Positions 5,258-26,328 are shown, counted from the stretch's first letter. The stretch is 64,000 nucleotides of DNA from Deltaproteobacteria bacterium RBG_16_64_85 (GCA_001798885.1 MGQW01000007.1:1-64000), one strand, 5' to 3'. The notes: generated from the letters alone by a model not told the origin. Numbers and translations are program-made.

Positions 5258-6241
5258 CTATTTTTGACTGGCGATCAGCCGGAACGAGTATTCCACGTCT
5301 CCCCCGTCCCCGTCGGAGAGCAGGAGGACGACCGGTGCATCTTTCCCCGGCGGCAGGGCGGATTCCCTCCAGGAAAGAGCGGTCTCGGAAAGATCGATCC
5401 CATCGGGGAGCGACTTCGCGAGAATGGTGACCGGGTCGCCGTCGGCATCTCGGACACGGAGATTGGCCGTGAAATACCCCCCGGTTCCCCGCGTGATGGC
5501 GACCTGCTCCACCGTGGGGGGGGAATTGATCACGAGAACCTTCGGGGTGAACCGCTTCGAACCGGGGGAGATGCCGTCAAACGCCTGGACTTCGGCGTGC
5601 ACCCACGTCCCCTTCGGCACCTTCTCCAGGGAAAGGGCGTTCATGGACTGGCCTTCCACCTCTTTGTCGTTCAGGAACCACCGGTACCGGAAGGACACCG
5701 GATCCCCGTCTGCGTCCTTCCCGGACGCGAGGGCGCGCACCTCCTGCCCCGTCTTCGGCTCCATGTTGGACAACGCTGCGGAGAGCACCTCGGGCAGGCA
5801 GTTGCGAACCGTGATCTCATGGCTGGTCAGGATCTCCGTCTTCCCGCCCGCTTCGATCTCGGCAATGGCCTGCACGCGGTCGCCCCTCCGAATCATACCG
5901 GCCGGGAGCCGTTCCCTTTCGCCGGGAAATCCCGTCCCGTTGATGAACCAGCTCACCTTTTTCCACTGCACGGCGACCTCCGGAGGGATCCCTGCCAGTC
6001 TTGCCCGCACCCCGCTTTCCGCATCCGGGTTGTCGGGGGCGAGCACGAGACTCGCGTTGATCCGCGGCTCGGCCGTTCTTGCCGGAGTGCTCTCCGCGGG
6101 CGAGGGGAGAGCGGGCGTCGCCTGGGGAACCGGAGCCGGGGGATGGGGGGGCGGGGGCTGCTTCTCCCCTCCCCTCCCGCACCCGGAAAAAATGATCCAC
6201 AGGAAAGCCGCAAGAAACAGCGCCGGGCGAGCCGTTGTCAC
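5258..6241 (-). CDS. Putative lipoprotein with Ig/cadherin-like repeats, pilY1-linked
   Basis: I do not recognise a named family. The start is taken as GTG 6241, overlapping the pilY1 stop as GTGA. This gives a short lipoprotein signal: a hydrophobic stretch ALFLAAFLWIIFSGC whose Cys (about residue 20) fits a lipobox. A Pro-rich linker (PPPPHPPAPVP) and about three beta-rich repeats follow, with GKDADGDPVSFRYRW and VRDADGDPVTI signatures typical of Ig-like/cadherin-like folds that bind calcium. The mature protein, about 305 residues, is expected in the periplasm or outer membrane. As the last gene of the minor pilin operon it may assist PilY1 or pilus function; that is inference. Confidence 0.75.
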   Translation of the reverse strand: MTTARPALFLAAFLWIIFSGCGRGGEKQPPPPHPPAPVPQATPALPSPAESTPARTAEPRINASLVLAPDNPDAESGVRARLAGIPPEVAVQWKKVSWFINGTGFPGERERLPAGMIRRGDRVQAIAEIEAGGKTEILTSHEITVRNCLPEVLSAALSNMEPKTGQEVRALASGKDADGDPVSFRYRWFLNDKEVEGQSMNALSLEKVPKGTWVHAEVQAFDGISPGSKRFTPKVLVINSPPTVEQVAITRGTGGYFTANLRVRDADGDPVTILAKSLPDGIDLSETALSWRESALPPGKDAPVVLLLSDGDGGDVEYSFRLIASQK

Positions 6242-9200
6242 TGGGAAATGAACTCCTTCCATCTCCTGAGGCGCTTGAACGCCGCGGGAGAGTCGATCGC
6301 GAACGACTGCACCCTTGCGGCGTTCGTCGTTCCGATGTAGAGACTGGCGCCGCCGGAAGCGCTCATCGAGACGACGGGACTGCTCGGGATACCGCCGGAA
6401 TCGAGCAGGCGGCTGCGGACGCGTGTGGTTCCGCTCGCGGGGATTAACCCACCGGCCCCCGCCGACATGTCGGACGTCCCCGTGGAAGCGGACAGGGAGG
6501 CCCTGATGCCATAGAGCCTCGCTTCCCCTCCACCCATGCACAGGTTCGTCGTCTCGGATCGGAAGGCCGAGAAGAAGAGCACGTCGTTGAACAGGACCGG
6601 GTCGGAGAGCACCTTCTCGTTCGTGTTGGGCATCACCGCGTACCACCCTTTCTGCGTGGGGGTCACGGTTCCGGTAACCGTGCTGTCCACGTTGGCGATG
6701 ACCGAGGTGAAGTTGCTCAGGTTCGATTCGCTGTATGGCGTAGACGGCACGGTCCCGTCGTCACGGATGGCGTAGATCCGTCCCGTTCCCGTGTTCTCGG
6801 GCTTTTCGCGGTCGCCGGTGCCGAAGAAGATCCACCGGTTGAACCCCGCGTCGAAGGCGACCTCCACCCGGTGGAAGCTCCTCTGGACGGTGGGAGTCGT
6901 CGAGGGTGAGGCGGCAAAGTACCGGACGCCGCTCCATTCGGTTCCCGTGATGAGATTCGAAACGTTGTCGAACGTGGCGGGGGTCCCGACATTAAATCTC
7001 CACAATTGACCGCCCAGGTCCACGATGTAGACGAAGTTGAGGAACCCGTCGTTGTCGCTGTCGACCCCCACCGGTCCGGAGGTCATGGGATACGCCACGG
7101 CATTGTCGCTCGCGGACGAGGCCTCCAGGCTCCAGATGACCTTCCCCAGCTTGATGTCGACCACATAAAAACCCCTGGCGATGCCGGAGGACGAGACCAC
7201 CTCTCCCGCCGTGTGGGCTCTGGTGATGCGGCCGGTTCCGGAGGATGGAATCCCCGTGATGGACGTAGTGGACGACGATCCGAAGTTGATCCCCCCCTCG
7301 GTGCCGATGGAGAGAATCCCCGTGCCCGAGGAGGGAAACCCTGTCGAGTCGACCACGCTGATGGAGGTCGCTCCCGCCGCGGCGTTGGCGGAGAGCGTCG
7401 TGTTGTGCCAATACCCCCCGCCGACGAAGGCCACCCACCGGTCCTTGACGTCCGTTCCCTCCCGGATCTTGACCCGGCCGATAAACGGCTCCGACCAGGT
7501 CTGTCCGAAGTTCGGGACGGTGGCGTTCGTGATTTCCCACAGGGGGACCGGATACGGGTCGCTGACGGAGTCCAGGTTCTCGGGCGAGGTGATGTCCAGC
7601 GCGAACAGCCCCCTGCCGCCCTTCCGCTCCCCGGTGATGATGACGGTCTTCCACTCCAGGGTCTCCTGGAGGCCGTCGTTGTCGGCGTCGAGCCAGACAT
7701 CCGCTGCCTTCGGCGAGCTGTCCACCATGTACTGGTGGGTCGAGGTGGTGGTCACCGTCATGTTCTTGAGGCTGGGCAGGAGGTTGTTCGGGATGTACCC
7801 GAATAGTTCATTCCCCCCCCCAACCCCTCCGGCGTTGTAGGCAGGTGGACTTAAAGTTGTATCCCAGATCCCGGCGTTGAACGCATGGAGCATCCCGTCG
7901 TTGGACCCTGCGTAGATCACCCGCTGCCGGTGGATCTTATCCTGCAGGAAGCTGGTGCCCGAGCCCACGTTGGTGCTGAAACCGGGGGCGGTGAAGAAAA
8001 GGCTCGGTGCGCCCACGACCACCGGCGTCGAGTGGAAGATGTCCCCCAGGCGCTTCGTACTGGAGGCCCGAAGGACGACATTGTCGACCAGACTGGCCTT
8101 CACAGCCGACGGGACGGCGAGGATGTTGTTGTCGAGCCAGCCGTTCGAGTTCGAGAACTCCTGCCGCGACCACGTTGTCCCCGAAACGGAGGCGGTGTAG
8201 ACCTTCCGGGGATTCGTGGAGTAGTTCCGGTTCGTGCTGTTGAGCTTGCTTCCCGCATCCCAGTTCGTTGCGGCATCGAGATCCGCGGGGATGGAACCGT
8301 CCACGTTCAGGTTGATCGACTTGCACGCCCCCTCCCAGTACGTCTCCGGCGGGTTGTCCGGCCGGAAGGTGGAGAGATAGAGCCGGTTGGAGTCCGTCGT
8401 CCGCACCGCGGGGACGACGGGAGCGGTAAAGGAGTACGCCTGGATGATGATCGTGTCGAAGACCTGCTGCAGGGCGGCCAGCAGTTCGGTCGCGTCTTCC
8501 GCGAAGAAGGTCTTCCCCGCGCCGATGGCGGTGTTGTCCCCGTTCTGTGCCACGTATGTATACTCCGCGGCCGAGAGATCGATGTTTTTCTGTTCGGCCA
8601 TGCGCCGCACGACCTGCCGGAGGACCTTCAGATGCGGAACGTCGTTCCCCGCGCTATCCCGCTTCATTCCGATCCCGACGACTAGGAGGATTACGTTGTC
8701 GTCCGCCAGCAGCTTCGCCTGGGAGATGCTCTCGGTGTTGCGCGCCTTCTGTCCGGTATTGGTGGATCCGGGATACCCATTGGCATTGAAGTTGGCTAAT
8801 ATCCCGTAGTTCGTGTCGGTCGTCGCGTCGGGCTGGGAGCCGCCGGGGCCGTAATATTTCGGCACGTTCCCGGATCCGCTGGCGGCGATCGTGTCCTCCC
8901 CGTCCGTGATGAGGACGACGAACTTCATCCGGCACGCAGTGGAGTTGTCGCTGGCCGCCGCAATCGGGAAATAGCGTCTTCGGGCCGCTTCCAGGGAACG
9001 CGCCATCGGCGTCGGGTTGTTCCCCGGGGTCAGGTTGTTCTTGATCGCGCTCCAGAAGGAGGAGTAGCTGGTGTTGAACGGCGGGAGGTTGTTGTCCGTC
9101 CCGTTGATCTGGACGGGAACGCGGATGTACTGGAACGTCGGGGACCCGGAACTGGGCCAGGTGATGTTGGGGCCGTAGATCATCAGACCCAGCCGCAGCT

Positions 9201-9630
9201 TCACGGCATCCTCGTCGGCGCTTGTCAGGTTCTGGTTGTATTTCAGCCCGTCCGTTCCCGATCCGTCCGGGGAGACGTGGGATCGCTGGGTGGGAAAGGA
9301 CGATGTGAGACCGCTGGGTACCGAGCCGTTTCCATTGAGAAGCTGGTACAGGACGCGGTAGGCGACGTCGACCCGGCTGCTGGTCTGGGTCCCGGTCCCC
9401 CCGAAGGCTGCCCGGGTCTGGCCGTCGAGGTCTCCCACCTCGGTACCGCCGTACGTTCGGGCCATCGATCCGGAGTCGTCCACGATGACGAGCACGTTCG
9501 GAGTGGCCCGGAACCGGAAGATGTCGGAGTCGTCCGCGAAGGAAGGCGGCGGGACCCCCCCGAGAGAGACGGCGAACGCGAAGCCCGCGATCAAGAGGGG
9601 CCGTAAGGAACCGAATCGTGCGGTCGTCAT
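6238..9630 (-). CDS. pilY1: PilY1-type type IV pilus tip/biogenesis protein
   Basis: The 1130-residue exported protein has a signal peptide (cleavage after about FA-33) and an N-terminal von Willebrand A domain with MIDAS motif DDSGSM (Asp51, Ser53, Ser55). A second VWA strand (KFVVLITDGEDT) follows, then a C-terminal PilY1 beta-propeller (VIYAGSNDGMLHAFN ... LWRFNVG ... FFGTGDREKP). Two EF-hand-like calcium loops are visible: DADNDGLQE and DSDNDGFLN. In known systems PilY1 caps the minor pilin complex and mediates adhesion and surface sensing. GGAGGT precedes the ATG by 7 nt. An extra Ser/Gly/Thr-rich segment interrupts the propeller near nt 7186-7405. It overlaps the downstream lipoprotein by 4 nt. 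Confidence 0.93.
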   Translation of the reverse strand: MTTARFGSLRPLLIAGFAFAVSLGGVPPPSFADDSDIFRFRATPNVLVIVDDSGSMARTYGGTEVGDLDGQTRAAFGGTGTQTSSRVDVAYRVLYQLLNGNGSVPSGLTSSFPTQRSHVSPDGSGTDGLKYNQNLTSADEDAVKLRLGLMIYGPNITWPSSGSPTFQYIRVPVQINGTDNNLPPFNTSYSSFWSAIKNNLTPGNNPTPMARSLEAARRRYFPIAAASDNSTACRMKFVVLITDGEDTIAASGSGNVPKYYGPGGSQPDATTDTNYGILANFNANGYPGSTNTGQKARNTESISQAKLLADDNVILLVVGIGMKRDSAGNDVPHLKVLRQVVRRMAEQKNIDLSAAEYTYVAQNGDNTAIGAGKTFFAEDATELLAALQQVFDTIIIQAYSFTAPVVPAVRTTDSNRLYLSTFRPDNPPETYWEGACKSINLNVDGSIPADLDAATNWDAGSKLNSTNRNYSTNPRKVYTASVSGTTWSRQEFSNSNGWLDNNILAVPSAVKASLVDNVVLRASSTKRLGDIFHSTPVVVGAPSLFFTAPGFSTNVGSGTSFLQDKIHRQRVIYAGSNDGMLHAFNAGIWDTTLSPPAYNAGGVGGGNELFGYIPNNLLPSLKNMTVTTTSTHQYMVDSSPKAADVWLDADNDGLQETLEWKTVIITGERKGGRGLFALDITSPENLDSVSDPYPVPLWEITNATVPNFGQTWSEPFIGRVKIREGTDVKDRWVAFVGGGYWHNTTLSANAAAGATSISVVDSTGFPSSGTGILSIGTEGGINFGSSSTTSITGIPSSGTGRITRAHTAGEVVSSSGIARGFYVVDIKLGKVIWSLEASSASDNAVAYPMTSGPVGVDSDNDGFLNFVYIVDLGGQLWRFNVGTPATFDNVSNLITGTEWSGVRYFAASPSTTPTVQRSFHRVEVAFDAGFNRWIFFGTGDREKPENTGTGRIYAIRDDGTVPSTPYSESNLSNFTSVIANVDSTVTGTVTPTQKGWYAVMPNTNEKVLSDPVLFNDVLFFSAFRSETTNLCMGGGEARLYGIRASLSASTGTSDMSAGAGGLIPASGTTRVRSRLLDSGGIPSSPVVSMSASGGASLYIGTTNAARVQSFAIDSPAAFKRLRRWKEFISQ

Positions 9631-9657
9631 GGTGGGTACCTCCTTGGATTTCCGATA

Positions 9658-10107
9658 CTAGTAGGACGTTCCGGCCGGGATGGGGCCGTAATTGACGGTC
9701 GCATCCACCCGGCCACTGGCGGTGAACCCGGACGGCGGCGCGGATAGGGTCGACGTCACGTCGTAATTGGCGAAGCGGAAGTTCGCCCCGTACCCGGGCT
9801 GGATCACGAGGGCCCCCGAGATGCCCGATGTCACCCTGTAGGTGGCCGTCATGTTCTGGCCCACGGTGAGGGTCTGGAAGGCGGGGGCCGCGCTGTCGAA
9901 TGTGATCGGGACCGCATCGATCCCGAAATACACCCCTGCCTCGGCAACATTCCGCGAAATCGTCCCCACGCGCGAATGCAGGGTGATGTCCATCTCGGTG
10001 GTCGTGATGCTGACCGCGTAGACCCCTATCGCTGTGAGGATCACCAGCAGCATCATCGTGATGATCATTGCGTTGCCTCGCCGGTTCATCCGCGTCGTCT
10101 CCTTCAT
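9658..10107 (-). CDS. pilX: PilX-like minor pilin / pilus assembly protein
   Basis: The 149-residue protein starts at ATG 10107, which overlaps the pilW stop as ATGA. It opens MKETTRMNRRGNAMIITMML, a short basic leader followed by a ~22-residue hydrophobic helix as in PilX N-domains. The classical G/FTxxE cleavage motif is replaced by NAMIIT, with Glu at TTTEMD further in. Its position between pilW and pilY1 matches the PilX slot of the fimU-pilVWXY1E operon, where these proteins form the tip initiation complex. Confidence 0.8.
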   Translation of the reverse strand: MKETTRMNRRGNAMIITMMLLVILTAIGVYAVSITTTEMDITLHSRVGTISRNVAEAGVYFGIDAVPITFDSAAPAFQTLTVGQNMTATYRVTSGISGALVIQPGYGANFRFANYDVTSTLSAPPSGFTASGRVDATVNYGPIPAGTSY

Positions 10108-11093
10108 GGGAGTCCCGAGTTCCGGACGTGGACGACCTTGTCCAGGATCCTGCGCTTGTACCCGTCCGCCGTCGTCCCGGCGGCCCTGTTCCCAAGGGCG
10201 GGACGTATCTCGTTCCAACCCGTTTCCTGTGTGCGCGTCCTCGCGAGGAGGAAAATGCGGACCTGCCGGATCTGCGTGATCTGCGCGGTGGTGACGTTGT
10301 CGACCCAGGTATCCACGATGCCATCCGGTGTCCCCGTTGTGTCCAGGCCGTACCGGAACTGCATGTCCTCGATGTCGTCGGCCACGGGCTGCGGGGCCTG
10401 CCCCGCCATCATCCGGTCCACCATCAAGGTCGGGTGCACCGGGTCGGTCACGCTGTCGATGAAGTACCGGAGGAACCGCGCCTTGGCGACCGTGGAAGCG
10501 GGGGGGCCGACCCCATAACCCCCGGCGGGGAATTTCGGGTGTGCAGCGGTGTTGTAGTTCATTCCGCCCCCGAACGTCAGCACACCGCCTGCCGCAGCCG
10601 AAGTTTCGAACAGGTCCGCCGTGATGCCGTCGGTGATGAGGACCAGTTCTCCCCCCCCCGCCAGGAAGCCGGAAATGCTGGCCACACTGACTTGTCCGGA
10701 GCCACTCAGCATGATGTTGGTGTTCGTGGTGGGGGGCTGGTTGGTATCCATATCATAGAGATAGAGGATATACAGGGAGTCGGGTCCCGCCGTGCTGTCG
10801 ACGGGGAACAGGGTGCGGATCGCGGTCCCCGACGGAAGAAGGCCGACGGGAACCGTCACCCCTTCGGGCGCCCCGGCCGAGGGAATCCCGTACCCGGCCA
10901 TCCGGATGTCGCGATCGAGGTACGCCTCAGCCAGCCGCAGGTTCTGCTGCATCTCGGCGATCCTGCTCTGCGTGGTGTAGGATTTCTGCTGGAAATCGAA
11001 CGTGGAAAATACCGCGGCCATCGCGATCGTCAATATCGCCACGGCCGCCAGGACCTCGACGAGAGTGAATCCGCTCCTTCCTGCGAGTCGCAT
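10104..11093 (-). CDS. pilW: PilW-like minor pilin
   Basis: The start is ATG 11093, two nt after the pilV stop. The prepilin leader RLAGRSG is followed by FTLVEVLAAVAILTIAMAAVF, giving cleavage before Phe and the conserved Glu5. The 329-residue product has a large C-terminal periplasmic domain of the PilW type (TRTQETGWNEIRP...). It is expected to assemble in the inner-membrane minor pilin complex after PilD cleavage. It overlaps pilX by 4 nt. Confidence 0.88.
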   Translation of the reverse strand: MRLAGRSGFTLVEVLAAVAILTIAMAAVFSTFDFQQKSYTTQSRIAEMQQNLRLAEAYLDRDIRMAGYGIPSAGAPEGVTVPVGLLPSGTAIRTLFPVDSTAGPDSLYILYLYDMDTNQPPTTNTNIMLSGSGQVSVASISGFLAGGGELVLITDGITADLFETSAAAGGVLTFGGGMNYNTAAHPKFPAGGYGVGPPASTVAKARFLRYFIDSVTDPVHPTLMVDRMMAGQAPQPVADDIEDMQFRYGLDTTGTPDGIVDTWVDNVTTAQITQIRQVRIFLLARTRTQETGWNEIRPALGNRAAGTTADGYKRRILDKVVHVRNSGLP

Positions 11094-11095
11094 CG

Positions 11096-11548
11096 TCAGG
11101 TTCCCAAGGGGGTGCGCTGGGTGACCAGCATCACGTTGTGCCAGTTCCCGCGGTCGTCCCGCCAGCAGCACCATACGGTGATGGTCTTGAACGTGTTGGC
11201 GGGATTGCTGTTGACGAACCATACCCTGTAGAATGGCGTCCCCCGGACGGACCTGCTATCCCCTTCCGCCCCCGGAAAATTCGCGTACGCCGGGATCATC
11301 GGTACCGAGGAGTTGTCGAGTCCGGTGGAGGATAAGATATTATCCCATCCGCTATTGCGGAACCACTCCAGCTTGTCCTGGGCCAGCCCAGTGGCGACGG
11401 TCGACTTGGATGCGGTGGCGTTCCCCTTGATGGCCGTTACCTGAAGCAACGCCAGTCCCAGGAGTCCGACCGCCAGGATCGCAAGCGAGACGAGCACCTC
11501 GATCAGGGAAAACCCTTCCTCACCGGCACGGGAATTACGTCCAGCCAT
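11096..11548 (-). CDS. pilV: PilV-like minor pilin
   Basis: The 150-residue protein starts at ATG 11548 inside the last 14 nt of fimT. The leader MAGRNSRAGEEG precedes FSLIEVLVSLAILAVGLLGL, a perfect type IV prepilin cleavage site with Glu5. The remainder is short and PilV-like. Upstream in-frame sequence only antisenses or overlaps fimT and is not used. It is the second gene of the pilus operon. Confidence 0.88.
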   Translation of the reverse strand: MAGRNSRAGEEGFSLIEVLVSLAILAVGLLGLALLQVTAIKGNATASKSTVATGLAQDKLEWFRNSGWDNILSSTGLDNSSVPMIPAYANFPGAEGDSRSVRGTPFYRVWFVNSNPANTFKTITVWCCWRDDRGNWHNVMLVTQRTPLGT

Positions 11549-12041
11549 TCTCCAACCTCGTTTTCGCCGTCCAGCCGAAGATCCGGATCGTGTACTGGTC
11601 GCCGACCGAACTGCGGATGTAGATACGGGCAAGGTCCAGAGGGAAGGTGTCGCCCGCCGGATTGAACAGGATCGTTGCCGTCCCGACGGCATTCGTCGTC
11701 ACCGCGCCTTGTGTCGTCAGGACGTTGTCGATGAAGGAACCCGCGGGCACCGGGATCGTTGACCGGACGGCCGTCCAGGCGGTGGAACCCGTCCCTAGAT
11801 TGCCCCTTTCCAGTAAAACGCTCTGGGCCGTGAGATCGATCACGATGCGATGCTGGAATTGGGAGGACAGCGCACGGGTCCTCGCCTCCTGGCATTCCGA
11901 GTAGAATTGGCGCTGGAACCCGGAGAAATTCGATCGATACACCCAGCGCTGCATGTTCGGGATAGCGATGATCACTCCGATTCCGATGATCATGATCACG
12001 ATCGTGGTCTCGATAAGGGTGAATCCCTGTCGCCTCTTCAT
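11535..12041 (-). CDS. fimT: FimT/GspH-type minor pseudopilin
   Basis: The start is ATG 12041, with GAGAGG 7 nt ahead. The leader MKRRQG is followed by FTLIETTIVIMIIGIGVIIA, a class III signal with Glu5, then a GspH-like domain (FNPAGDTFPLDLARIYI). The length of 168 residues fits FimT/FimU. It is the first gene of the minor pilin operon and sits about 16 nt behind a predicted sigma-54 transcription start. Upstream in-frame codons lie in the promoter and are not coding. Confidence 0.88.
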   Translation of the reverse strand: MKRRQGFTLIETTIVIMIIGIGVIIAIPNMQRWVYRSNFSGFQRQFYSECQEARTRALSSQFQHRIVIDLTAQSVLLERGNLGTGSTAWTAVRSTIPVPAGSFIDNVLTTQGAVTTNAVGTATILFNPAGDTFPLDLARIYIRSSVGDQYTIRIFGWTAKTRLENGWT

Positions 12042-15188: not shown

Positions 15189-17213
15189 CTACGCCCCGCC
15201 GGCGGGAATCACCCTGGCATCCACGATCTGCAGCCCCTTTTCGTGCACGATGACGGGGTTCATGTCCAGTTCCTCGATCTCCGGGTGCCTCGCCACGAAA
15301 TCCGAAACCTGCACGAGAAGCCTGTGGATGGCGCCCACGTCGGAGGGCTTTCCGTCCCTGTACCCCAGCAGAAGCCGGCTTCCCCGGATTTCGTCGACCA
15401 TTTCCGCCGCATCCTTCTCCGCAATAGGCACGATTCGGAACGAGACATCCCTCAGGGCCTCCACCAGGACCCCCCCCATCCCGAACATGACGGCATGCCC
15501 GAACTGCAGGTCCCTGATCACACCGACGATCACCTCCCGCCCCGGCGAGGCCATGGCGCTTACCAGCACGCCTTCGTCCCGCGCGCCCGCCCGCTTCGCG
15601 GATTGGGAAATGTTCCGACAGGCCTGCCGGACGGCCGGCTCGTCGGCCGCGTCGAGGATCACCCCGCCGATGTCGCTTTTATGCGTGGCGTCCGGGGAGT
15701 TCATCTTGACCGCCACGGGATAACCGATCCCGCGGGCCGCAGCAACCGCCTCTTCCTCGTTTATCGCGTGCCGTGAGGGGATCACCGGGAATCCCGACTC
15801 CGCAAGAAGGCGCATCGATTCGACCGGCGTGAGCGCTTTGCGTCCGTCCGTTTCCCTCTTCGCGGCCTCCGGTGTTCCGGAGTCCAGTGGAAAAGTCTTC
15901 CTGCGGAAGCGGGCGTGGCAGGAAAGGGCGCGCACCGCCCGCTCCGGGGTCGGAAACACCGCGATCTTCTTCTCGTGCAGCAGAGCCCGCTCCTCCCGTT
16001 CGACATCCGCTCCGCCGAGGTAGGCGACGAGTTCGCAGCGGCCGGGGGTGATCACCTCGCTGGCCCCCGGGATCGGGTCGCCGAAGATGGGCATGACGAC
16101 GTCGTAATGGCTCTCCGACGCCTCCAGGACCTTCCTGTATCGCGCGGCGTCCGTGTCGCCGGTGAGATCCAGCGGGTTTCCGACAATGCAGTGCGCGGGA
16201 AGCATTTCCCTCAGGCGCGCGGCAAGCTCCGTCGGCAAGGGGGTGACCCGGAATCCCTCCTCTTCCGCAACGTCGGTGGCGATGATGGCGGACCCCCCCG
16301 AGCTCGTGACGATCAGCATCCTGGGTCCCGCCGGGGAAGGAAGGTAGGCGAGCGCCTTGGAGAAATCGTAGAGATCCTCCAGGGAGGACGCCCGGTGAAC
16401 GCCGAACTGCCGGAACACCGCGTCGTAGATCTCGTCCCTGCCGGCGAGCGACCGGGTGTGGGATTCCGCCGCCTTTCTCCCTCGCTCCGTTCGCCCGGCC
16501 TTGAAGATCACCAACGGTTTCTTGCACTTCCGGATCGCGGCGAGGAACTTTCCCGCGTCCTTGACTCCCTCGATGTAGAGGGAAACCACCTTCGTGTTCG
16601 GGTCTTCGGCGAAGAATTCGATCAGGTCCGCCTCGTCCACGTCGGCCCGGTTCCCCATGCTCACGAACGCGGAGAACCCGAGCCCGTCCTCCGATGCCCA
16701 GTCGATCATGGCAGCGCCCACCGTGCCGCTCTGGGACACGAATGCGATGTCGCCTCTCCGTGTGATGAGGGGCCACGACGCGCACAGGCCGTGGTAGGGG
16801 TAATTGACCCCCTGGCAGTTCGGACCCACCACGCGGATCCCGCATCGTGCGGCGTTCCGGGCGAGCTCCGCCTGGAGAACCGCGCCCTCCTCGCCCGATT
16901 CGGCGAAACCGCCGCTGATGACGATGGCCGCACGGATGTTCCGCTCCCCCAGTTGGAGAAGGGTCCCCGGCACGAGTTTCGCCGGGATGATGAGAACGGC
17001 CAGGTCGGTGCCCGCCGGTAGGTCCGCCGCCGATTTCAGGGAGGGTCTGCCAAGGATCGTTTCTCCTTTCGGGTTGACGGGAAGGATCTCCCCCCGGAAG
17101 CCGCCTTCCACGATGTTCCTGAAGATCTGGAAACCCATCTTTTCGGGGTTGGACGAAGCGCCGATGACGGCAAGGCGCTCCGGGCGGAAAAGTGGGGTTA
17201 GGGAGCCGGACAT
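15189..17213 (-). CDS. ADP-forming acyl-CoA synthetase (fused alpha-beta, Acd type)
   Basis: This NDP-forming synthetase interconverts acyl-CoA + ADP + Pi with acid + ATP + CoA. The 674-residue protein has a CoA-binding Rossmann domain (residues 1-120, LAVIGASSNPEKMG), succinyl-CoA-ligase-like domains (VVGPNCQGV, FVSQSGTVGAAM) with phospho-His252 in ESHTRSLAG, and a C-terminal ATP-grasp domain from about residue 450 (GYPVAVKMNSPDATHKSDIGGV ... ELDMNPVIV). The family usually has SHTGSLAG; here Gly is Arg. The ATG at 17213 fits the conserved start better than TTG 17228. The substrate is not evident. It is cotranscribed with ald. Confidence 0.9.
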   Translation of the reverse strand: MSGSLTPLFRPERLAVIGASSNPEKMGFQIFRNIVEGGFRGEILPVNPKGETILGRPSLKSAADLPAGTDLAVLIIPAKLVPGTLLQLGERNIRAAIVISGGFAESGEEGAVLQAELARNAARCGIRVVGPNCQGVNYPYHGLCASWPLITRRGDIAFVSQSGTVGAAMIDWASEDGLGFSAFVSMGNRADVDEADLIEFFAEDPNTKVVSLYIEGVKDAGKFLAAIRKCKKPLVIFKAGRTERGRKAAESHTRSLAGRDEIYDAVFRQFGVHRASSLEDLYDFSKALAYLPSPAGPRMLIVTSSGGSAIIATDVAEEEGFRVTPLPTELAARLREMLPAHCIVGNPLDLTGDTDAARYRKVLEASESHYDVVMPIFGDPIPGASEVITPGRCELVAYLGGADVEREERALLHEKKIAVFPTPERAVRALSCHARFRRKTFPLDSGTPEAAKRETDGRKALTPVESMRLLAESGFPVIPSRHAINEEEAVAAARGIGYPVAVKMNSPDATHKSDIGGVILDAADEPAVRQACRNISQSAKRAGARDEGVLVSAMASPGREVIVGVIRDLQFGHAVMFGMGGVLVEALRDVSFRIVPIAEKDAAEMVDEIRGSRLLLGYRDGKPSDVGAIHRLLVQVSDFVARHPEIEELDMNPVIVHEKGLQIVDARVIPAGGA

Positions 17214-18500: not shown

Positions 18501-18562
18501 AAGAAGGCGGCGAATTTCGGACGAATGCCAAGACGTTCATTCCACTCTCGGAGGAAACCCAC

Positions 18563-21325
18563 TTGACCGGATCGACTCCGCCCTCAGACGGCCTCTGGGC
18601 TCTTGGCACCCCGCCCCGATTGGGAACGCCCCTTCCCGGAAGAATGGTTGCGCTCACGATCCATCGCGACCGCTACGGTCCCCCCTCCGATGCGCTGCAG
18701 CAGGAAACGATCTCCGCACCCCGCCTGCGTCCTTCCGACGCGAAACGGGTCCTGGTGGCCATCCTGGCGACGGGGCCCAACTTCAACACCAACTTCGCGT
18801 CCCTCGGTCTTCCGGTCCCCGTGTTCGGGCGCGGGGATGCGGCGATGCTGCACGTGCCCGGCAGCGACGCTCTCGGTATCGTGGTGGATGCCGGCGCCGC
18901 CGTCACGCGGGTGAAGGCCGGACAGGCGGTCATCCTGGATTCCTGGACCGGGAGGAACATCCGCGGGTACGAGACCCACGACGGGTTCAACGCCCAGTTC
19001 GCAATCCTCGACGAGGAACGGGCGATCCCTCTCCCGGGGCCTTTGCGGCGCCATACCCCCGAGCGGCTCGCCGCCATGCTGCTCACTTTCGGGACGGCGT
19101 ATCGCGCTGTCGTGGAGCGGCTCCGGGTGTCTCCCGGCGAAGCGGTTCTGGTCATGGGGGGAGGAAAGGGAACCAGCTTCGCGGGTGCGCAGATCGCCAA
19201 GGCGCTGGGGGCCCGCGTGATTCTTGTGGGATCCAACCCCGATCTGGCCCGGTCGCTGATCGACCGCGGGATGGTCGACGCTTTCGTGGACCGCACGGGA
19301 ATTCCACGTGAGGTCTTCGGGCCCATTTCCATCGACGAGGATCATGAGGGATGGAAACGCCGGACCGAGCCGTTCCGGCGCGCGGTCTTTGAAGCGAACC
19401 TGGAGGGCCCGGTGGACGCGATCTTCGAACACACCGGCGGCGCCAACTTTCCTCTCCTGGTTTCCGTCCTGTCGGAAAAGGGGCGCCTCGCCTTCTTCGG
19501 CGCCACCGGGGCGGGGCTTCGGGGCGAGTACAAGGAAACATTCTTCTACCAGGGTCGTCGGTTCGTGATGGACGCCCGGTGGGTCTGGATGCGGCAGAAG
19601 CAGGTCCTCTTCCGCAAGGGAAGCCCGGAGTCGATCTTCGAGGAGATCGGGCTTCCGCCGGGGCGCCGGGGGTTGATCTGGGGAGCCGACGCCTACGCCC
19701 GGAAATTCGCCCGCGCCGCCCTGGCCCGGGGGACCGAAGTGGCGGTCATCGCCTCCCGGAAACAGGAAAAACGCGGGACCTCGGAACTTCAACGGATGGG
19801 GGTTCCTCCGAAGAACATCCTCGATCGCGACACCTTCACGCTGCCCGAGGACATGCCGGACCCGCTGACTGCGAACGGGCGCCTGAACCCGGAATACGCC
19901 GCCGGCTTCATGAAGCATGCGCAGGCTCTCGGGAAAGCGCTATGGGGGATTTTCGGGCCGAGGGTGAGCCCGGATTTCGTCGTCGAGCGCCCGGACCGGA
20001 GCACGATGCACTTCAGTTCCTTCGTCCTTCGCGACTATGACGAGGCGGACGCCATGCCGAGCGGTTATATCGTCGTCCGCGGGGCGTCGGACCTCTCCAT
20101 CCTGGGCTCTCACATGTACAACTCGTCGCAGGCGATGGAAGTCCTCCGGCTGCTCGCCGGAGGCAGGCTCACGATGGAGCAGGACGACCTGGAGGTGACC
20201 ACGCTTTCCAAACTCCCGGAGCTGCAACAGAGGATGCTCTCCGGCACGATGAGGAAGCCCAAGGGCGTCGCCCTCGTCCAGGCGGACCGCCCGGGACGGT
20301 CGATCTCGGAATACGAAGATTTCTTCCTCGGCGAAAAGCTGCGCGTCGCCGATCCCGCGCAGAACCGTTTCATCGGCATCCGCCTGATGGATGAGGTAGC
20401 CGTGCTCACCCTCACCCGGCCCGACGCCCTGAATGCGCTCAGCGAAGACCTGCTCTCCCAGCTCGCCTCGGTCGTGCGGGAAATCCGCGACCTCGGCACT
20501 TTGGAGGGGAAGCCGGTGCGCGCCCTGATCGTCACCGGCGCGGGAAGATCGTTCGTCGCCGGGGCGGACGTCAAGGAGTTCCTCGCGAAGCCGGGCGAAG
20601 CCATCGCTTCGCTTGCCGCAAGAAATATCGCCGTCTTCTCGGAGCTCGAAAACCTTACCGTGCCGGTCATCGCCGTGGTCGACGGGTTCGCTCTCGGCGG
20701 CGGGAACGAACTGGCGATGAGCGCCCATTACCGGATCGTGACGGAGAACGCGAGCCTCGGCCAGCCCGAGGTCAAGCTCGGCATCATCCCCGGCTACGGA
20801 GGGTTGCAGCGGCTCCCGCGCCTGGTGGGTCCCTGGAAGGCGGCGGGGATGTGCATCAACGGGGAGTCCGTCGACGGACACGAGGCGGTCGACATCGGGC
20901 TCGCGGACGAATTCTGTCCCTCCGCGACCGCGCTTCACCGCGCCGTCCGGCTGGCGCAGGAGGTTCTCTCGGAGAGGAAATCCCTGGCACGGAAGGAATG
21001 GGACGGCACAGGCGCAAGGCAGAAAGAAGCCCTCGCCCGGCTGTTCGCCAGGCCGGAGGTCCAGGACCTTCTTTCCGCACCCGAACCGGATGCCGCAGGC
21101 GCGGGGGATCTGCGCGCGGCGCGCAGGGCCGCGGGAAAAGCAGCCCTACGGGCGATGCGGTACGGATACGACAACGGCTTCGTCGCGGGCCTCGCCAACG
21201 ATGCCCGGGCATTCGGGGAAGTGGCCGCCTCCCCCGCAGGGCAGGAATGGGTGCACCGGTTCCTCGACAAGGATCCCCGCCAGTCTTCCTTCCTTACGCT
21301 CCTCTCGTTGCAGGAGGCTCCATGA
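18563..21325 (+). CDS. Crotonyl-CoA-reductase-like MDR fused to enoyl-CoA hydratase
   Basis: The 920-residue protein joins three parts. Residues 27-360 match the crotonyl/acrylyl-CoA reductase branch of MDRs: HRDRYGPPSDALQ, GSDALGIVVDAG, the IRGYETHDGFNAQF signature, nucleotide loop GGGKGTSFAG, IFEHTGGANFP and MDARWVWMRQKQ. Residues 366-576 repeat the cofactor domain in diverged form (LIWGADAYARKFA ... SHMYNSSQAMEVLRLL). Residues 600-800 form a crotonase with both catalytic Glu (716 in GGGNE, 736 in QPEVKLGIIPG). It probably reduces an enoyl-CoA and (de)hydrates a 3-hydroxyacyl-CoA in the cytosol. TTG 18563 has GGAGG 8 nt ahead and gives a CCR-like N-terminus; ATG 18644 is the alternative. 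Its TGA overlaps the next ATG. Confidence 0.85.
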   Translation: MTGSTPPSDGLWALGTPPRLGTPLPGRMVALTIHRDRYGPPSDALQQETISAPRLRPSDAKRVLVAILATGPNFNTNFASLGLPVPVFGRGDAAMLHVPGSDALGIVVDAGAAVTRVKAGQAVILDSWTGRNIRGYETHDGFNAQFAILDEERAIPLPGPLRRHTPERLAAMLLTFGTAYRAVVERLRVSPGEAVLVMGGGKGTSFAGAQIAKALGARVILVGSNPDLARSLIDRGMVDAFVDRTGIPREVFGPISIDEDHEGWKRRTEPFRRAVFEANLEGPVDAIFEHTGGANFPLLVSVLSEKGRLAFFGATGAGLRGEYKETFFYQGRRFVMDARWVWMRQKQVLFRKGSPESIFEEIGLPPGRRGLIWGADAYARKFARAALARGTEVAVIASRKQEKRGTSELQRMGVPPKNILDRDTFTLPEDMPDPLTANGRLNPEYAAGFMKHAQALGKALWGIFGPRVSPDFVVERPDRSTMHFSSFVLRDYDEADAMPSGYIVVRGASDLSILGSHMYNSSQAMEVLRLLAGGRLTMEQDDLEVTTLSKLPELQQRMLSGTMRKPKGVALVQADRPGRSISEYEDFFLGEKLRVADPAQNRFIGIRLMDEVAVLTLTRPDALNALSEDLLSQLASVVREIRDLGTLEGKPVRALIVTGAGRSFVAGADVKEFLAKPGEAIASLAARNIAVFSELENLTVPVIAVVDGFALGGGNELAMSAHYRIVTENASLGQPEVKLGIIPGYGGLQRLPRLVGPWKAAGMCINGESVDGHEAVDIGLADEFCPSATALHRAVRLAQEVLSERKSLARKEWDGTGARQKEALARLFARPEVQDLLSAPEPDAAGAGDLRAARRAAGKAALRAMRYGYDNGFVAGLANDARAFGEVAASPAGQEWVHRFLDKDPRQSSFLTLLSLQEAP

Positions 21326-24300
21326 CGGAAACGAAGCCGATCTCGAAAAAGGCTCCCGGAGACCGCCCGCTCACCTTCGAGGAAATCGGCCGGATCGCCG
21401 CCCTGATCCTGGAGAAGGAGGCGGAGGGAAAGGTTTCGGACCTTCCCGCAGGCCCCCTGAAGGAGATTCTCTCCCTCCTTCGCGAGCGCACCGTCCCCGA
21501 TTCCATCGGTTCGCTCGTCTCCGCAGCACGCGGCAAGATCGGTGAGCGGGTCGCCCGCCTCCTCCAGAAAGGGGAAATCCGCGTCGCGGTCGTCGACTTC
21601 GAGGAACAGACCGGCTTTCCGCGAGAGCACGCCCGACCGACCAACGAAGTCCTCCTCGTCCGGAAGGGGAAGGAACTTTTGTGGCTGGGGAAAAAGCGTC
21701 TCCTCGAGGGCGGGGATGCCGTGCCCTGCATCTTCCTCACCAAGGCGTTCCTTTCGAAAACGCGGACGCGCCCGCACCTGCTCCTCCAGGCGATCCTCCA
21801 CCCCATCGTGGAGTGGGTCTACGGGATGCCCCACATGGTGGCGGTGCTGTGCGAATCGGCATACAACGCTGCTCCTCCCGCCCCGGACGGCGGCGATGTC
21901 AGCGACCTCAATCGTTTCATCGCGGAGGAGGCCGGTCGGGATCGCGACTTCGCCTACTTCGACCGCATCCTGGGCACTTCCTACGAGCCGGACGAGTTCC
22001 GGATGGACGAACTGTCCACAGCGTTCGGCCCCGACGACCGCAGGATCGGCGAGGTGGTCTCCCGGGCCCGCGTCATGGGGGTGAACTACCGGAAACTCGT
22101 GGAGACGGTCCTTGCCGCGACGCGCGAGGAGATCGCCCGCGAACAGATCGCGCAGGGACGGAAGGCCCTGGACGAGGGGGATGCCGACCGGGCCCTGCAG
22201 ATTCTGCGCAAAGTCGCGCTCTCGCCCGACACTCCGGAGAGCGCACAGGAGGAATCGGACGCGCTGATCGGGCTGGCCGTCCGCTCCTGCGCCCTGGACG
22301 CCGATCCGGCGTACGAAGGTCTCCGGATGGAGAGCGGCGGCATCCGGGTCGAGCCTTGGGCGGGCCGCAAGGCGCGGGAATTTGCCGGCCTGCTCCATGC
22401 GGCAGCGGACGTCGTGCGGAAGCAGCGGGAAACCCTCTCCCCCGGCAACGGCGGCGATGCGGGTACGGACCCCTTGGGAGAAAGAGGCGCCCCGAGGAGC
22501 ATCCACGTCCTCGTCGACCTGGAACGCCCTTCGGCGAAGTTCATCGACGGCCACGACCGGGTTCACTGGGTTTTCGAGAAGTCGTTCGTTGAGGCGTTGC
22601 TTGCCGGGATGTCGGCCGGGATTACGTCAGACGGGATCCTCGCCCTGATGGCCTGCCGGTTCGTTCGGGATGGCGCTTTCCCGGATGAAAAACTCAAGAT
22701 TGACAAGCAGTTCGCCGTGGCGGTGAAAGGAGCACTTGAAGGCTACCGTTTTTTCCAGGCCCTCCCCCGGGAAACCCGGGACCAGATCGCGGCATTCTGC
22801 GAAGCCAGCGGCGTTGAAGACCGCCTCTACAGACTCTACATCTCGCTCGGAGAGGAAACGAACCCGGCCCGCGCGAGCCATCTCATACGCCGCGTCGTTT
22901 CCCGGACCCACTCTTACAACTATGTCCGATACCCGGACACCTTCCTCGCCGGGCAGGTGGTCGTCATCACGGGAGGAGGCACCGGGATGGGAAGGGCGAT
23001 CGCGCTCGAGGCCGCCCGGAGCGGAGCGAACGTCGTCATCACCGGGCGCCGGCCAGCCCCCCTGGAGGAGACCCGGGCGGACATGGACGACCTGATCCGT
23101 TTCCTCGGGCTCACCAACCAGACTCTGATCGTCCAGGGGGACGTGAGCGATCCCAAGTACGTCGGCGAAATGTTCGAGCGGATCGAGCGCGAGCTCGGCC
23201 GGATCGACGTCCTCTATAACAATGCCGGGGTTTCCGGCCCCGTGGAATTCGGTTCGGCGTACCGGGAAGAGCACTTCGATCCGTACCGGGATGCGGTGAA
23301 CATCCACCTCACGGGGGCCTGGCTTGCCAGCCTCGAGGCCGCGCGGCTGATGGAGGCGCAGCCCCGGGGCGGGGTGATCGTCATGGTGGGGACCTTCTAC
23401 AGCGAGAGCATCCATCGGCACGTGCTGCACGCCTACCCGGGCCGGCTCCCCTACACGTCCGCCCAATCCGCCAAGCTGGCCCTCGGCGACTACCTGGCCT
23501 GGATGCTTGCCGACCGGAACATCACGGTCCTGTCGCTGAACCCTGCAGCCGTGGCAACCGAACGCATCCAGAGGGGGGCCGGGGTCTTCGACAAGGGCTC
23601 CCGGGCGCGGGCCCGGATCGGCCGGAAGGTGTCCCCCGAGGCGCTGGAGCGGGACACTCTCGACCGGACGGTGAGGCACGAGTTCGTGCAACCCCGGGAT
23701 TTCGCGAGGGTGGCGCTCGAGGTTCAGAATATGGTATTCCGCCGCACGATCGGCGGGCAGCGGCTCCCCATGGGCGGGGTGACCTACGAGCAGCCTCCGG
23801 GCGTTCTCCCGTCACCCGCCGTCCTCGGCCGTTACCCGGACCTGGTGGGGAAGGTCGCCCTGGTCGCCCTTCACGGTTTCAAGGGCGACGACGCCCCGCT
23901 CATCGAAGCGTCCGCAAGGGCGCTTGCCCGTTCCGGTGCGAACGTCGTCCTCGCCGGAAGCCGGCCGGAGGACCTGGAGCAGCTCGCCCTTCAGATCAAC
24001 TCCTCGGGAGGCGAGGGGATGGCGACCGTTTCTCCCGTGAACCTTTCCCGGCCGGCGGAGGTGCAGGAGCTTTTCGACAGGCTTCCCCGCGTTGATCTCC
24101 TCCTCCACTTCACCGGCAACGTCGACTGGAAGCGCCCCCTCACCCACCTTCCCTTCGAGGAGTGGAGCGCGTACGTGGACCGGTTCGGATTCATCCCCCG
24201 TCTCCTCTGCTGGCAGGCGGAACGCCGGATGGACCGGGACGGGACCGACGGGACCATCGCCATCGTGGGACCGGACCTCTCCGGTGTCCCCTCCATCCGG

Positions 24301-26328
24301 GAACGGCACCTCGTCCAGGTGTTCCAGGCGATGCTCCGCCCCGCGGTGGCCACCGAATCCATGGAACGCGCCCTAATGCGAAAAGCCCAGGCCGAGGGTA
24401 CGGCGCCCGGGCACGTGAGCGACATCAACCTCGGACTGATCCTCCCCGGGAGGACGGATGGGAGGAACAAGAGCGCGAGTGCGGCGAAGACCGCGGCGAC
24501 GGTCCTTTGGCTCGTCGAGGAGGGGAAGATGGTTTCGGGAGCCTCCCTCCTCCCCGACGAGCAGAACAGCCTCGCCGGCCTTCCCGAAGAACCCCGCGAG
24601 GCCTCCGGTTCCATGGCCGGCAAGGTCGTCGTGGTGACCGGCGGTATCCGCAATCTCGGCAAGGAGATCTCCCTTCGATTCGCCGCGGAACGGGCGACCG
24701 TGGTGGCGGCGAGCCGGCACCCCCGCATCGCGGGCGTTCCCGCCGAGGATGCGGAGAAGGCGCGCGCGGAGATGGCGGCGGCGGACGCCGCGCTCGCGTC
24801 GATGCGCCGATCCGGGGGCCGGTCCCTGTGGATCGACGCGGATGTCTCCCGCCCCCAGAAAGTGCGGGCCCTGATCGAGGAAACGCGGAACCGCTTCGGG
24901 AAGATCGACGCGTACGTGAACAACGCGGGCGCCGGCGGCGATTTCTCCCTGATCGGCGACGTCCTGCGGGAACACCGGCAGAGCTGGGACGCCGTGCTGC
25001 GCGCCAACTTTCTCGGCCCCTGGACGGCCATCTCCCTCCTTCGTGAAATCATGAAGAACCAGCCGGGCGGGGGAACGATTGTCAACGTATCCACGCACTA
25101 CGCGGACCATCCCTATCTCTTCCGGACGATCTACACGGTTTCCAAGATCCTGCTCAAGGGGCTGACTCTTTCCCTCAGCGCCCGCCTTGCGGACGAAAAC
25201 GTCCGGATCGCCGACGTCGCCCCCAGTCTCATCGCGGGGCCGCGGATGGACTGGGTGATGCGCAATTACGCCGGCAAGTTCGCGGAGCAGCTCGGCTCCC
25301 TGCGGGATCTGCGGGGTGCCGAAGCCAAAACCTTGCAGGAGCTCTTCATCCGCTGCTTCGACCGGTCTCTTCCGGTCCCGGAGCGGGGGTCCTCGTCAAA
25401 AGCCTTCCTTTCGGCAGTCCGGGGAAGCAGTCTGTCGAAGGCCAGGCGCGCCGAGCTGGAATCGTGGTTCGCGAGCATCCGGGAATGGTTCGGGGCCACC
25501 GTCCCGGAAGACCCGCCCACGAACGAACAGGTGGCTGACGCCGTGCTGTTCGCCGCCAAGAACGCACGGTTCCTCGAGGACCGCTTCATCGGGGTTTCCC
25601 CGCTTCCTTCCTTTTCCTCCTTTCCGGGGGAAACTCCCTGGAAAAGAGAAACCCTGTCCGGCGAACCGTTTCTCTTCCTTTCCATCGGCATGAAAGCGGG
25701 AAATGCGGAGGGCCAGACCGAAGCGCTGCGGAGCGCCGGTGCCGTCGTCACCTCCCTGCTGGAACACCCTTCCAACCCCGGCCGGGTGGACATCTCGCGG
25801 CCGACGCCGGGTGCGGCAAGCGGTGCCAGGCGCCGTCCCGCCGAAAAGATCACCCGCGACCTGGACGTTTCGGACCCCCGTCTCCTCGAACCCTGGCTGG
25901 ACAATTCCCTCCTGGGGGGATCCCCTCCCGCCGGTGCGGTTCTCTTTCTGGGAACTTCGACGGCCGGCAGGCCGGTACCGGAATTCAGTACCGAAGAGAG
26001 GGAGGGATTTCTCGTTCATCTTGGCAAGGCGCTCAACTCCTTCACCGAGTCCGCCAGGGCGGTCCGCGAACACGGGCATGTGATCGTCATCGTTCCTCCC
26101 GGCAACTCCGAGGAAGGGCACCTCGTCCGCGTGGCGGCGCGGCAAATGATCCGTACCTGCATCGCTGAACAGCACTTCCTCCCCGTAGGGAAAAAGGTGC
26201 GGGTGAGCCTTCTGACCGCGCCCGGCGCTCAGGAAGAGCGGGCGTTTCATCAACGCCTGATCGACATCCTCTCCGGGCAGGTCCCTCCGGCGGTCGATGC
26301 GATCCCCGCCGGCCGTTTTCGTCCTTAG
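21322..26328 (+). CDS. Giant multi-SDR protein with malonyl-CoA-reductase-like architecture
   Basis: The 1668-residue protein starts at ATG 21322 (AGGAGG ahead, ATGA overlap). Residues 1-540 have no domain I recognise. Residues 541-830 form SDR unit 1 (TGGGTGMG, NNAG 633-636), but the active site reads Y711-TSA-Q715 instead of YxxxK, and Ser is Thr. Residues 840-1085 are a degenerate SDR without glycine motif. Residues 1098-1440 form a complete SDR (TGGIRNLG, NNAG, NVS, Y1271-TVS-K1275), and 1450-1660 are again degenerate. The alternation of catalytic and degenerate units and the linker GGVTYEQPPG...PSPAVLGRYPDLVGKV resemble Chloroflexus malonyl-CoA reductase. NAD(P)H reduction of an acyl-CoA or aldehyde is likely; the substrate is inferred. 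Confidence 0.8.
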   Translation: MTETKPISKKAPGDRPLTFEEIGRIAALILEKEAEGKVSDLPAGPLKEILSLLRERTVPDSIGSLVSAARGKIGERVARLLQKGEIRVAVVDFEEQTGFPREHARPTNEVLLVRKGKELLWLGKKRLLEGGDAVPCIFLTKAFLSKTRTRPHLLLQAILHPIVEWVYGMPHMVAVLCESAYNAAPPAPDGGDVSDLNRFIAEEAGRDRDFAYFDRILGTSYEPDEFRMDELSTAFGPDDRRIGEVVSRARVMGVNYRKLVETVLAATREEIAREQIAQGRKALDEGDADRALQILRKVALSPDTPESAQEESDALIGLAVRSCALDADPAYEGLRMESGGIRVEPWAGRKAREFAGLLHAAADVVRKQRETLSPGNGGDAGTDPLGERGAPRSIHVLVDLERPSAKFIDGHDRVHWVFEKSFVEALLAGMSAGITSDGILALMACRFVRDGAFPDEKLKIDKQFAVAVKGALEGYRFFQALPRETRDQIAAFCEASGVEDRLYRLYISLGEETNPARASHLIRRVVSRTHSYNYVRYPDTFLAGQVVVITGGGTGMGRAIALEAARSGANVVITGRRPAPLEETRADMDDLIRFLGLTNQTLIVQGDVSDPKYVGEMFERIERELGRIDVLYNNAGVSGPVEFGSAYREEHFDPYRDAVNIHLTGAWLASLEAARLMEAQPRGGVIVMVGTFYSESIHRHVLHAYPGRLPYTSAQSAKLALGDYLAWMLADRNITVLSLNPAAVATERIQRGAGVFDKGSRARARIGRKVSPEALERDTLDRTVRHEFVQPRDFARVALEVQNMVFRRTIGGQRLPMGGVTYEQPPGVLPSPAVLGRYPDLVGKVALVALHGFKGDDAPLIEASARALARSGANVVLAGSRPEDLEQLALQINSSGGEGMATVSPVNLSRPAEVQELFDRLPRVDLLLHFTGNVDWKRPLTHLPFEEWSAYVDRFGFIPRLLCWQAERRMDRDGTDGTIAIVGPDLSGVPSIRERHLVQVFQAMLRPAVATESMERALMRKAQAEGTAPGHVSDINLGLILPGRTDGRNKSASAAKTAATVLWLVEEGKMVSGASLLPDEQNSLAGLPEEPREASGSMAGKVVVVTGGIRNLGKEISLRFAAERATVVAASRHPRIAGVPAEDAEKARAEMAAADAALASMRRSGGRSLWIDADVSRPQKVRALIEETRNRFGKIDAYVNNAGAGGDFSLIGDVLREHRQSWDAVLRANFLGPWTAISLLREIMKNQPGGGTIVNVSTHYADHPYLFRTIYTVSKILLKGLTLSLSARLADENVRIADVAPSLIAGPRMDWVMRNYAGKFAEQLGSLRDLRGAEAKTLQELFIRCFDRSLPVPERGSSSKAFLSAVRGSSLSKARRAELESWFASIREWFGATVPEDPPTNEQVADAVLFAAKNARFLEDRFIGVSPLPSFSSFPGETPWKRETLSGEPFLFLSIGMKAGNAEGQTEALRSAGAVVTSLLEHPSNPGRVDISRPTPGAASGARRRPAEKITRDLDVSDPRLLEPWLDNSLLGGSPPAGAVLFLGTSTAGRPVPEFSTEEREGFLVHLGKALNSFTESARAVREHGHVIVIVPPGNSEEGHLVRVAARQMIRTCIAEQHFLPVGKKVRVSLLTAPGAQEERAFHQRLIDILSGQVPPAVDAIPAGRFRP

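Follow-up and report, generated by a model that had tools for sequence, protein, structure and literature searches.

Two translationally coupled genes, P1 and P2, probably form, together with a detached ligase, a rearranged malonyl-CoA reductase (MCR) and propionyl-CoA synthase (PCS) system that converts malonyl-CoA via 3-hydroxypropionate to propionyl-CoA. We give this reading a probability of roughly 0.6. The genes lie in a stretch of 64,000 nucleotides, which we call the window.

The defining segment of the 3-hydroxypropionate bicycle leads from malonyl-CoA to propionyl-CoA, and genome surveys recognise it by matches to Chloroflexus-type MCR and PCS. Neither the chemistry nor the fold families are new. 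What is new, as far as we found, is the arrangement: a PCS has its domain order reversed and its ligase detached, and it is joined by translational coupling or by fusion to a divergent MCR that bears a new domain. Among the papers that were searched, none deals with this gene pair or with a 3-hydroxypropionate route in the lineage, which is one of uncultured 'deltaproteobacteria'.

The gene pair

The window is part of contig C7 of a 2.2-Mb assembly that is 99% complete. The pair consists of the following features.

18563-21325, plus strand: P1, a fusion of a PCS-type enoyl-CoA reductase and an enoyl-CoA hydratase, 920 aa (from sequence and homology)
21322-26328, plus strand: P2, an N-terminal region and four SDR units, MCR-like, 1668 aa (from sequence, homology and the fold model)
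18550-18554, plus strand: GGAGG, Shine-Dalgarno-like, preceding the TTG start of P1 (from sequence)

The original prediction described two open reading frames of 920 and 1668 aa that overlap as ATGA, and this is what we find: the stop codon of P1 (TGA, 21323-21325) overlaps the ATG of P2 (21322), and AGGAGG lies directly upstream of this ATG. P1 starts with TTG at 18563. A later in-frame ATG is present at 18644. Since the residues N-terminal to this ATG are kept in relatives, 18563 is the better start.

The predicted domain content was recovered as well. P1 contains an MDR reductase and an enoyl-CoA hydratase. P2 contains an SDR array, in which three SDR stretches were found by sequence and all four were resolved in the fold model. 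As a layout, however, the prediction was incomplete. It overlooked a second Rossmann lobe in P1 (about residues 350-600), some 540 residues that precede the first SDR of P2, and the fact that two of the four SDR units are without the catalytic Tyr-Lys.

P1 resembles propionyl-CoA synthase

P1 can be divided into three parts.

18563-19606, plus strand: reductase lobe 1 (residues 1-348), a GroES-like domain and the first Rossmann domain, with the CCR/PCS active-site NFN and GYE conserved
19610-20362, plus strand: reductase lobe 2 (residues 350-600), the second Rossmann domain and a C-terminal piece with an invariant GSH; common to PCS reductases, with no such extra lobe in CCR
20369-21277, plus strand: enoyl-CoA hydratase domain and PCS-like C-terminal tail (residues 603-905), with invariant catalytic Glu sites GGGNELAM and GQPEVKLG

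The top PDB match of P1 is the Erythrobacter PCS (6eqo), in the hydratase and the reductase parts alike. The family profile of the P1 reductase is co-linear with this PCS (11-482 to 1245-1730). Residues 38-589 of P1 align end to end, second lobe included, with three haloarchaeal PCS reductases and one free-standing PCS-type reductase; on PCS this alignment covers residues 1233-1804. When lobe 2 is searched alone, the highest score goes to the lobe of a PCS-type reductase from Haladaptatus, and the tail of the hydratase matches the PCS tail. Lobe 1 searched alone scores slightly higher with CCR than with PCS. Across 11 orthologues both catalytic Glu of the hydratase and the GYE and GSH of the reductase are invariant, and NFN is kept as N-F/Y-N.

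Like P1, PCS (Chloroflexus, Erythrobacter 6eqo, haloarchaeal P0003 and P0004) combines a tailed hydratase with a double-lobed reductase of about 600 aa. The homology runs end to end, and the active-site NFN, GYE and GSH are kept. The differences are nevertheless considerable. The domain order is reductase-hydratase in P1 but ligase-hydratase-reductase in PCS, and the reductases are only 25-27% identical. PCS has an AMP-forming ligase domain, whereas neither P1 nor P2 contains an AMP-binding (AMP-forming acyl-CoA synthetase) domain. Hence we file P1 only as PCS-like and not as PCS. The predicted set of modules for turning malonyl-CoA into propionyl-CoA is supported, except that the CoA-ligase step of PCS is missing from the pair.

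The residue that follows NFN also differs: it is an invariant Thr in P1 and Asp in PCS, where the Asp excludes CO2. It is possible that P1, which is without this Asp, adds CO2 to acrylyl-CoA and gives methylmalonyl-CoA.

CCR (4gi2) is homologous to lobe 1, with the active-site Asn and Glu conserved, but it has a single Rossmann domain and no hydratase. We rejected the identification of P1 as a crotonyl-CoA carboxylase/reductase on account of the extra lobe and of the score with NCBIfam model TIGR01751 (180.8 bits against a cut-off of 378.6). The CCR-type enoyl-CoA reductase of the original prediction thus holds as a reductase, but one of the PCS type rather than simply CCR.

P2 resembles malonyl-CoA reductase

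P2 consists of a long N-terminal region and the SDR array.

21322-22944, plus strand: conserved N-terminal region (residues 1-541), with no Pfam, PDB-sequence or fold match
22945-23811, plus strand: SDR-A, with the malonate motif and with YTSAQSAK in place of YxxxK (from sequence)
23434-23454, plus strand: YPGRLPY, the YxxRxxY motif in SDR-A (from sequence; motif function from PMC10470521)
23812-24603, plus strand: SDR-B, a degenerate unit without the catalytic Tyr-Lys (from sequence)
24604-25521, plus strand: SDR-C, with an intact Thr-Tyr-Lys (NVST...YTVSK) and the malonate motif (from sequence)
25114-25134, plus strand: YLFRTIY, the YxxRxxY motif in SDR-C (from sequence; motif function from PMC10470521)
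25522-26325, plus strand: SDR-D, a degenerate SDR unit (from sequence and the fold model)

The YxxRxxY motif is conserved in SDR1 and SDR3 of MCR, where it binds the malonate moiety or malonate semialdehyde (PMC10470521). All nine P2 orthologues (9/9) have it in both SDR-A and SDR-C. It is missing from each of 62 other SDRs, which include the 29 nearest to MCR in the phylum. The general plan is also shared: MCR (8hjw, 8hi4, 6k8v) has four SDR units that alternate between catalytic and degenerate, with YxxRxxY in both catalytic units. P2 differs from MCR by the extra 540 aa at its N-terminus, by the absence of the usual Lys in SDR-A and by a very divergent sequence.

Structure comparison and phylogeny point in the same direction. 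When the AlphaFold model of P2 residues 530-1668 was searched with Foldseek, MCR structures were the first six of 350,542 PDB chains, and the top match was full-length Chloroflexus MCR (8hjw; E 6.5e-26, 1,351 alignment columns). Because this model has low confidence over the SDR array (pLDDT 62.6, with SDR-A poor), the result is ranking evidence and not a structure. A tree that includes 49 other SDRs places SDR-A and SDR-C together with the SDR1 and SDR3 of MCR on the same side of a branch (99/92, or 93/86 with the motif masked), although all four groups sit on long branches and the clustering may thus be partly an artefact. Grouping with ketoreductases is what the original prediction had named as speaking against it; the units group with MCR SDR1 and SDR3 instead. 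Its reading of P2 as an MCR-like double SDR is supported by the malonate motif, the tree and the fold ranking.

Sequence searches are less clear. The two best PDB sequence matches of P2 are MCRs, yet this rank comes from adding up the hits of two SDRs; when one unit is taken alone, other SDRs score as well as MCR. A Chloroflexus MCR query (its sequence checked against 8hjw) returned only generic SDRs among the matches listed for 148 genomes. Since generic SDRs outscore P2 with this query, P2 is no close MCR orthologue; the proposed comparison with Chloroflexus MCR favours a relationship by tree and fold but not by sequence search, where generic SDRs come first. A tblastn search of P2 against plasmids likewise gave generic SDRs only.

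In SDR-A the triad is Thr-Tyr-Gln. The Gln stands at the position of the catalytic Lys of MCR, and an invariant Lys follows three residues on (Tyr+7). SDR-A/B is the most conserved part of P2 (mean column identity 86%, against 71-72% elsewhere), which argues against decay.

We also considered that the SDR halves of P2 are swapped relative to MCR. This idea was dropped: the profiles were equivocal and the tree did not resolve the four SDR groups. The unswapped order fits better, given the length of the fold alignment to full-length Chloroflexus MCR.

For the N-terminal 540 aa we obtained nothing significant from Pfam, PDB profiles or an AlphaFold2 model (pLDDT 72.6) searched with Foldseek; there were weak TPR-like matches. 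One could imagine that this region supplies the missing activation by transferring or re-loading CoA onto 3-hydroxypropionate. The fused protein of 2,600 aa would then be self-sufficient, spending no ATP for a separate ligase. We regard this as a long shot.

A candidate detached ligase and the genomic context

A candidate for the missing ligase step of PCS is found next to the pair.

15189-17213, minus strand: NDP(ADP)-forming acid-CoA ligase, a divergent neighbour of the pair, candidate 3-hydroxypropionate activator and presumed partner (from synteny and homology)

The ligase belongs to a syntenic block of an alanine dehydrogenase gene, the NDP-forming acid-CoA ligase gene, a cold-shock gene, P1(-P2), a cytochrome bd oxidase and a branched-chain-type ABC transporter. 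It adjoins the pair in many genomes. Of the genomes with a fused gene, the three most divergent do not carry it at this site. Models for acetate-, 4-hydroxybutyrate- and 3-hydroxypropionate-CoA ligases all match the gene product, and all do so below their cut-offs. Like the ADP-forming 3-hydroxypropionate-CoA ligase of the Nitrosopumilus type, the product is a member of the NDP-forming acyl-CoA ligase superfamily, but it reaches only 433.9 bits with the model for that type (NF045492, cut-off 1300), and acetate- and 4-hydroxybutyrate-CoA ligases score higher.

A cluster on a Haladaptatus plasmid (L147) offers a comparison. As in the window, it holds an NDP-forming ligase (35% identity over 703 aa to ours), hydratases and a PCS-type reductase of 632 aa. 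In contrast to P1 these enzymes are unfused, and no MCR-like gene was seen within the L147 stretch. Being independent, the Haladaptatus grouping speaks for the ligase being the third part of PCS in detached form. The plasmid search also found full-length PCS genes in haloarchaea, and in Natribaculum the PCS gene adjoins genes for methylmalonyl-CoA mutase and an acyl-CoA carboxylase.

Elsewhere in the genome, contig C15 carries an operon of carboxyltransferase, biotin carboxylase, BCCP and methylmalonyl-CoA mutase. Judged by its sequence, it would encode a propionyl-CoA carboxylase and a methylmalonyl-CoA mutase, as expected for a 3-hydroxypropionate bicycle.

Conservation and natural fusion

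Of the 24 genomes in the window's family, 16 have P1 and 12 have P2. The orthologues that we aligned share 49-88% identity with the proteins of the window, depending on the domain, and contain no internal stops. On these grounds the pair is not a product of chance. In four lineages (L004/G203, L008/G213, L009/G208 and L010/G154) P1 and P2 form one uninterrupted reading frame of 2,614-2,690 aa. The original prediction had proposed to look for the pair across genomes, and had counted its absence outside this strain as evidence against the pathway; the pair is conserved family-wide, in multiple genera, and naturally fused.

We looked for P2 in 395 genomes of the phylum; outside the window's family a single genome has it, from a different family of the class. 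This is the sole genome with P2 but without P1, and its P2 is frame-broken inside SDR-A. An intact P2 without P1 was not found in the 395 genomes. P1 without P2 is present in several genera and also in a second family, f10.

Proposed pathway and alternatives

The structure of the genes, their homologies and motifs, the natural fusion, the synteny and the downstream operon are observed; from them we infer the substrates, direction, cofactor, ligase specificity and channelling as follows. The two catalytic SDRs of P2 would reduce malonyl-CoA to malonate semialdehyde and then to 3-hydroxypropionate. For the next step, activation to 3-hydroxypropionyl-CoA, the ADP-forming ligase nearby is the most likely enzyme. 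The hydratase domain of P1 would then form acrylyl-CoA and hand it over directly to the PCS-type reductase, which would reduce it to propionyl-CoA with NADPH. Propionyl-CoA carboxylase and methylmalonyl-CoA mutase would finally carry propionyl-CoA to succinyl-CoA and into the TCA cycle. Translational coupling and natural fusion would hold the enzymes together, plausibly containing acrylyl-CoA and malonate semialdehyde. Two observations in relatives also favour this pathway: G099, which has no P2, carries a CoA-acylating (methyl)malonate-semialdehyde dehydrogenase gene beside P1, and where P2 is present and P1 absent, the reading frame of P2 is broken. The physiological role could be the assimilation of acetyl-CoA.

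Reduction, dehydration and saturation are also the work of the KR-DH-ER modules of fatty-acid and polyketide synthases, and the pair could be a CoA-linked machine for beta-keto processing of that kind. P2 would reduce a 3-oxoacyl-CoA, the P1 hydratase would dehydrate it and the P1 reductase (or carboxylase/reductase) would saturate it, so that, for example, acetoacetyl-CoA would yield butyryl- or ethylmalonyl-CoA, in the synthesis of lipids or storage compounds. The three activities agree in kind, lobe 1 does score slightly higher with CCR, and generic SDRs do equal MCR for a single unit. We still consider this unlikely: both catalytic SDRs have the malonate motif, which none of the other SDRs examined shares, the alternating four-SDR plan is that of MCR, and P1 has the PCS-specific second lobe and hydratase tail. 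Moreover, the genome holds another operon whose genes, judged from the sequence start only, already read as thiolase, 3-hydroxybutyryl-CoA dehydrogenase, hydratase and acyl-CoA dehydrogenases.

The same enzymes might instead run in the oxidative direction, starting from propionate or 3-hydroxypropionate and leading towards malonyl-CoA or acetyl-CoA, with acrylyl-CoA, 3-hydroxypropionyl-CoA and malonate semialdehyde as intermediates. The existence of genomes with P1 but no P2 would agree with this direction. In one relative that has P1 without P2 (G099), a CoA-acylating (methyl)malonate-semialdehyde dehydrogenase adjoins P1, and the conserved neighbourhood includes an amino-acid-type transporter and alanine dehydrogenase. 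With the threshold that we applied, no member of that dehydrogenase family turned up in the window's genome. Reductases of the CCR/PCS type are NADPH-dependent and strongly reductive, as established for the family; MCR chemistry proceeds to 3-hydroxypropionate, and the carboxylase-mutase operon already handles propionyl-CoA. This makes the oxidative direction quite improbable. The existence of P1 without P2, both in family f10 and at the same syntenic site in four genomes (G099, G200, G201 and G209), would also fit a different division of labour. P1 alone would then be the conserved function, assimilating external 3-hydroxypropionate or acrylate with the ligase, and P2 an SDR protein acquired in addition, which would act on another substrate, perhaps a dicarboxylic one, and whose coupling would be regulatory only. 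The fusion in four lineages, the malonate motif in P2 and the fact that the only clear P2 without P1 is frame-broken make this very improbable indeed.

Lineage and annotation

Going by the labels of its relatives and by GTDB, the window's genome probably belongs to MBNT15/Deferrimicrobiota. A published genome analysis describes this group as without the key enzymes of the 3-hydroxypropionate route (PMC9386147), and surveys that take the bicycle beyond Chloroflexota name other groups (PMC9802188). Searches with Chloroflexus-type MCR likely miss the version described here, because generic SDRs win with such a query. If the MCR/PCS reading is true, annotation understates both how widely the route is spread and how much evolution has reshuffled it. 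The natural fusions of MCR, hydratase and reductase would then be ready scaffolds for studies of acrylyl-CoA containment and for 3-hydroxypropionate or propionyl-CoA engineering.

The record of one relative, L006, bears the label Actinomycetota. The same locus is found in G206, a member of the window's family, and the label of L006 is probably wrong.

In P1, the reductase-hydratase fusion (window 18563-21325, + strand), the residue directly after the NFN motif of the reductase active site is an invariant Thr, whereas all propionyl-CoA synthase (PCS) reductases seen carry Asp at this place. The exchange may be a clue to CO2 handling.

P2, the four-SDR protein, is also present without P1 in one genome (G242) that belongs to a different family within the class. 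In this copy (L148, contig C57) the first SDR unit, SDR-A, is interrupted by a frame change at about 10242-10244, where about 17 residues are absent. Either decay or an assembly error would account for the broken gene.

The locus also lies, with 79% identity and in the same syntenic setting, on a contig whose record labels it Actinomycetota (L006, CoA_1_bin.34); this label is probably wrong.

Full-length PCS genes, annotated solely as 'AMP-binding protein', lie on haloarchaeal plasmids (L068, L069 and L146), close to methylmalonyl-CoA mutase genes in the Natribaculum and Natrinema plasmids. A Haladaptatus plasmid (L147, 3242-10620) encodes an unfused PCS-type reductase of 632 aa, annotated 'zinc-binding dehydrogenase' and adjoined by an NDP-forming ligase and two hydratases.

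Elsewhere in the window's genome, contig C86 (L082, 7033-18087) holds a run of genes reading as thiolase, 3-hydroxybutyryl-CoA dehydrogenase, hydratase, acyl-CoA dehydrogenases and a second B12 mutase. Relatives, too, show a hydratase-mutase pairing. The run possibly serves butyrate or isobutyrate metabolism.

The window itself also contains a cluster of minor pilin-like genes (6238-12041) including a 1118-aa PilY1 beta-propeller protein, a LonB/LonC-like AAA protease (50504-52918) and a B12-binding radical SAM protein (60163-61707).
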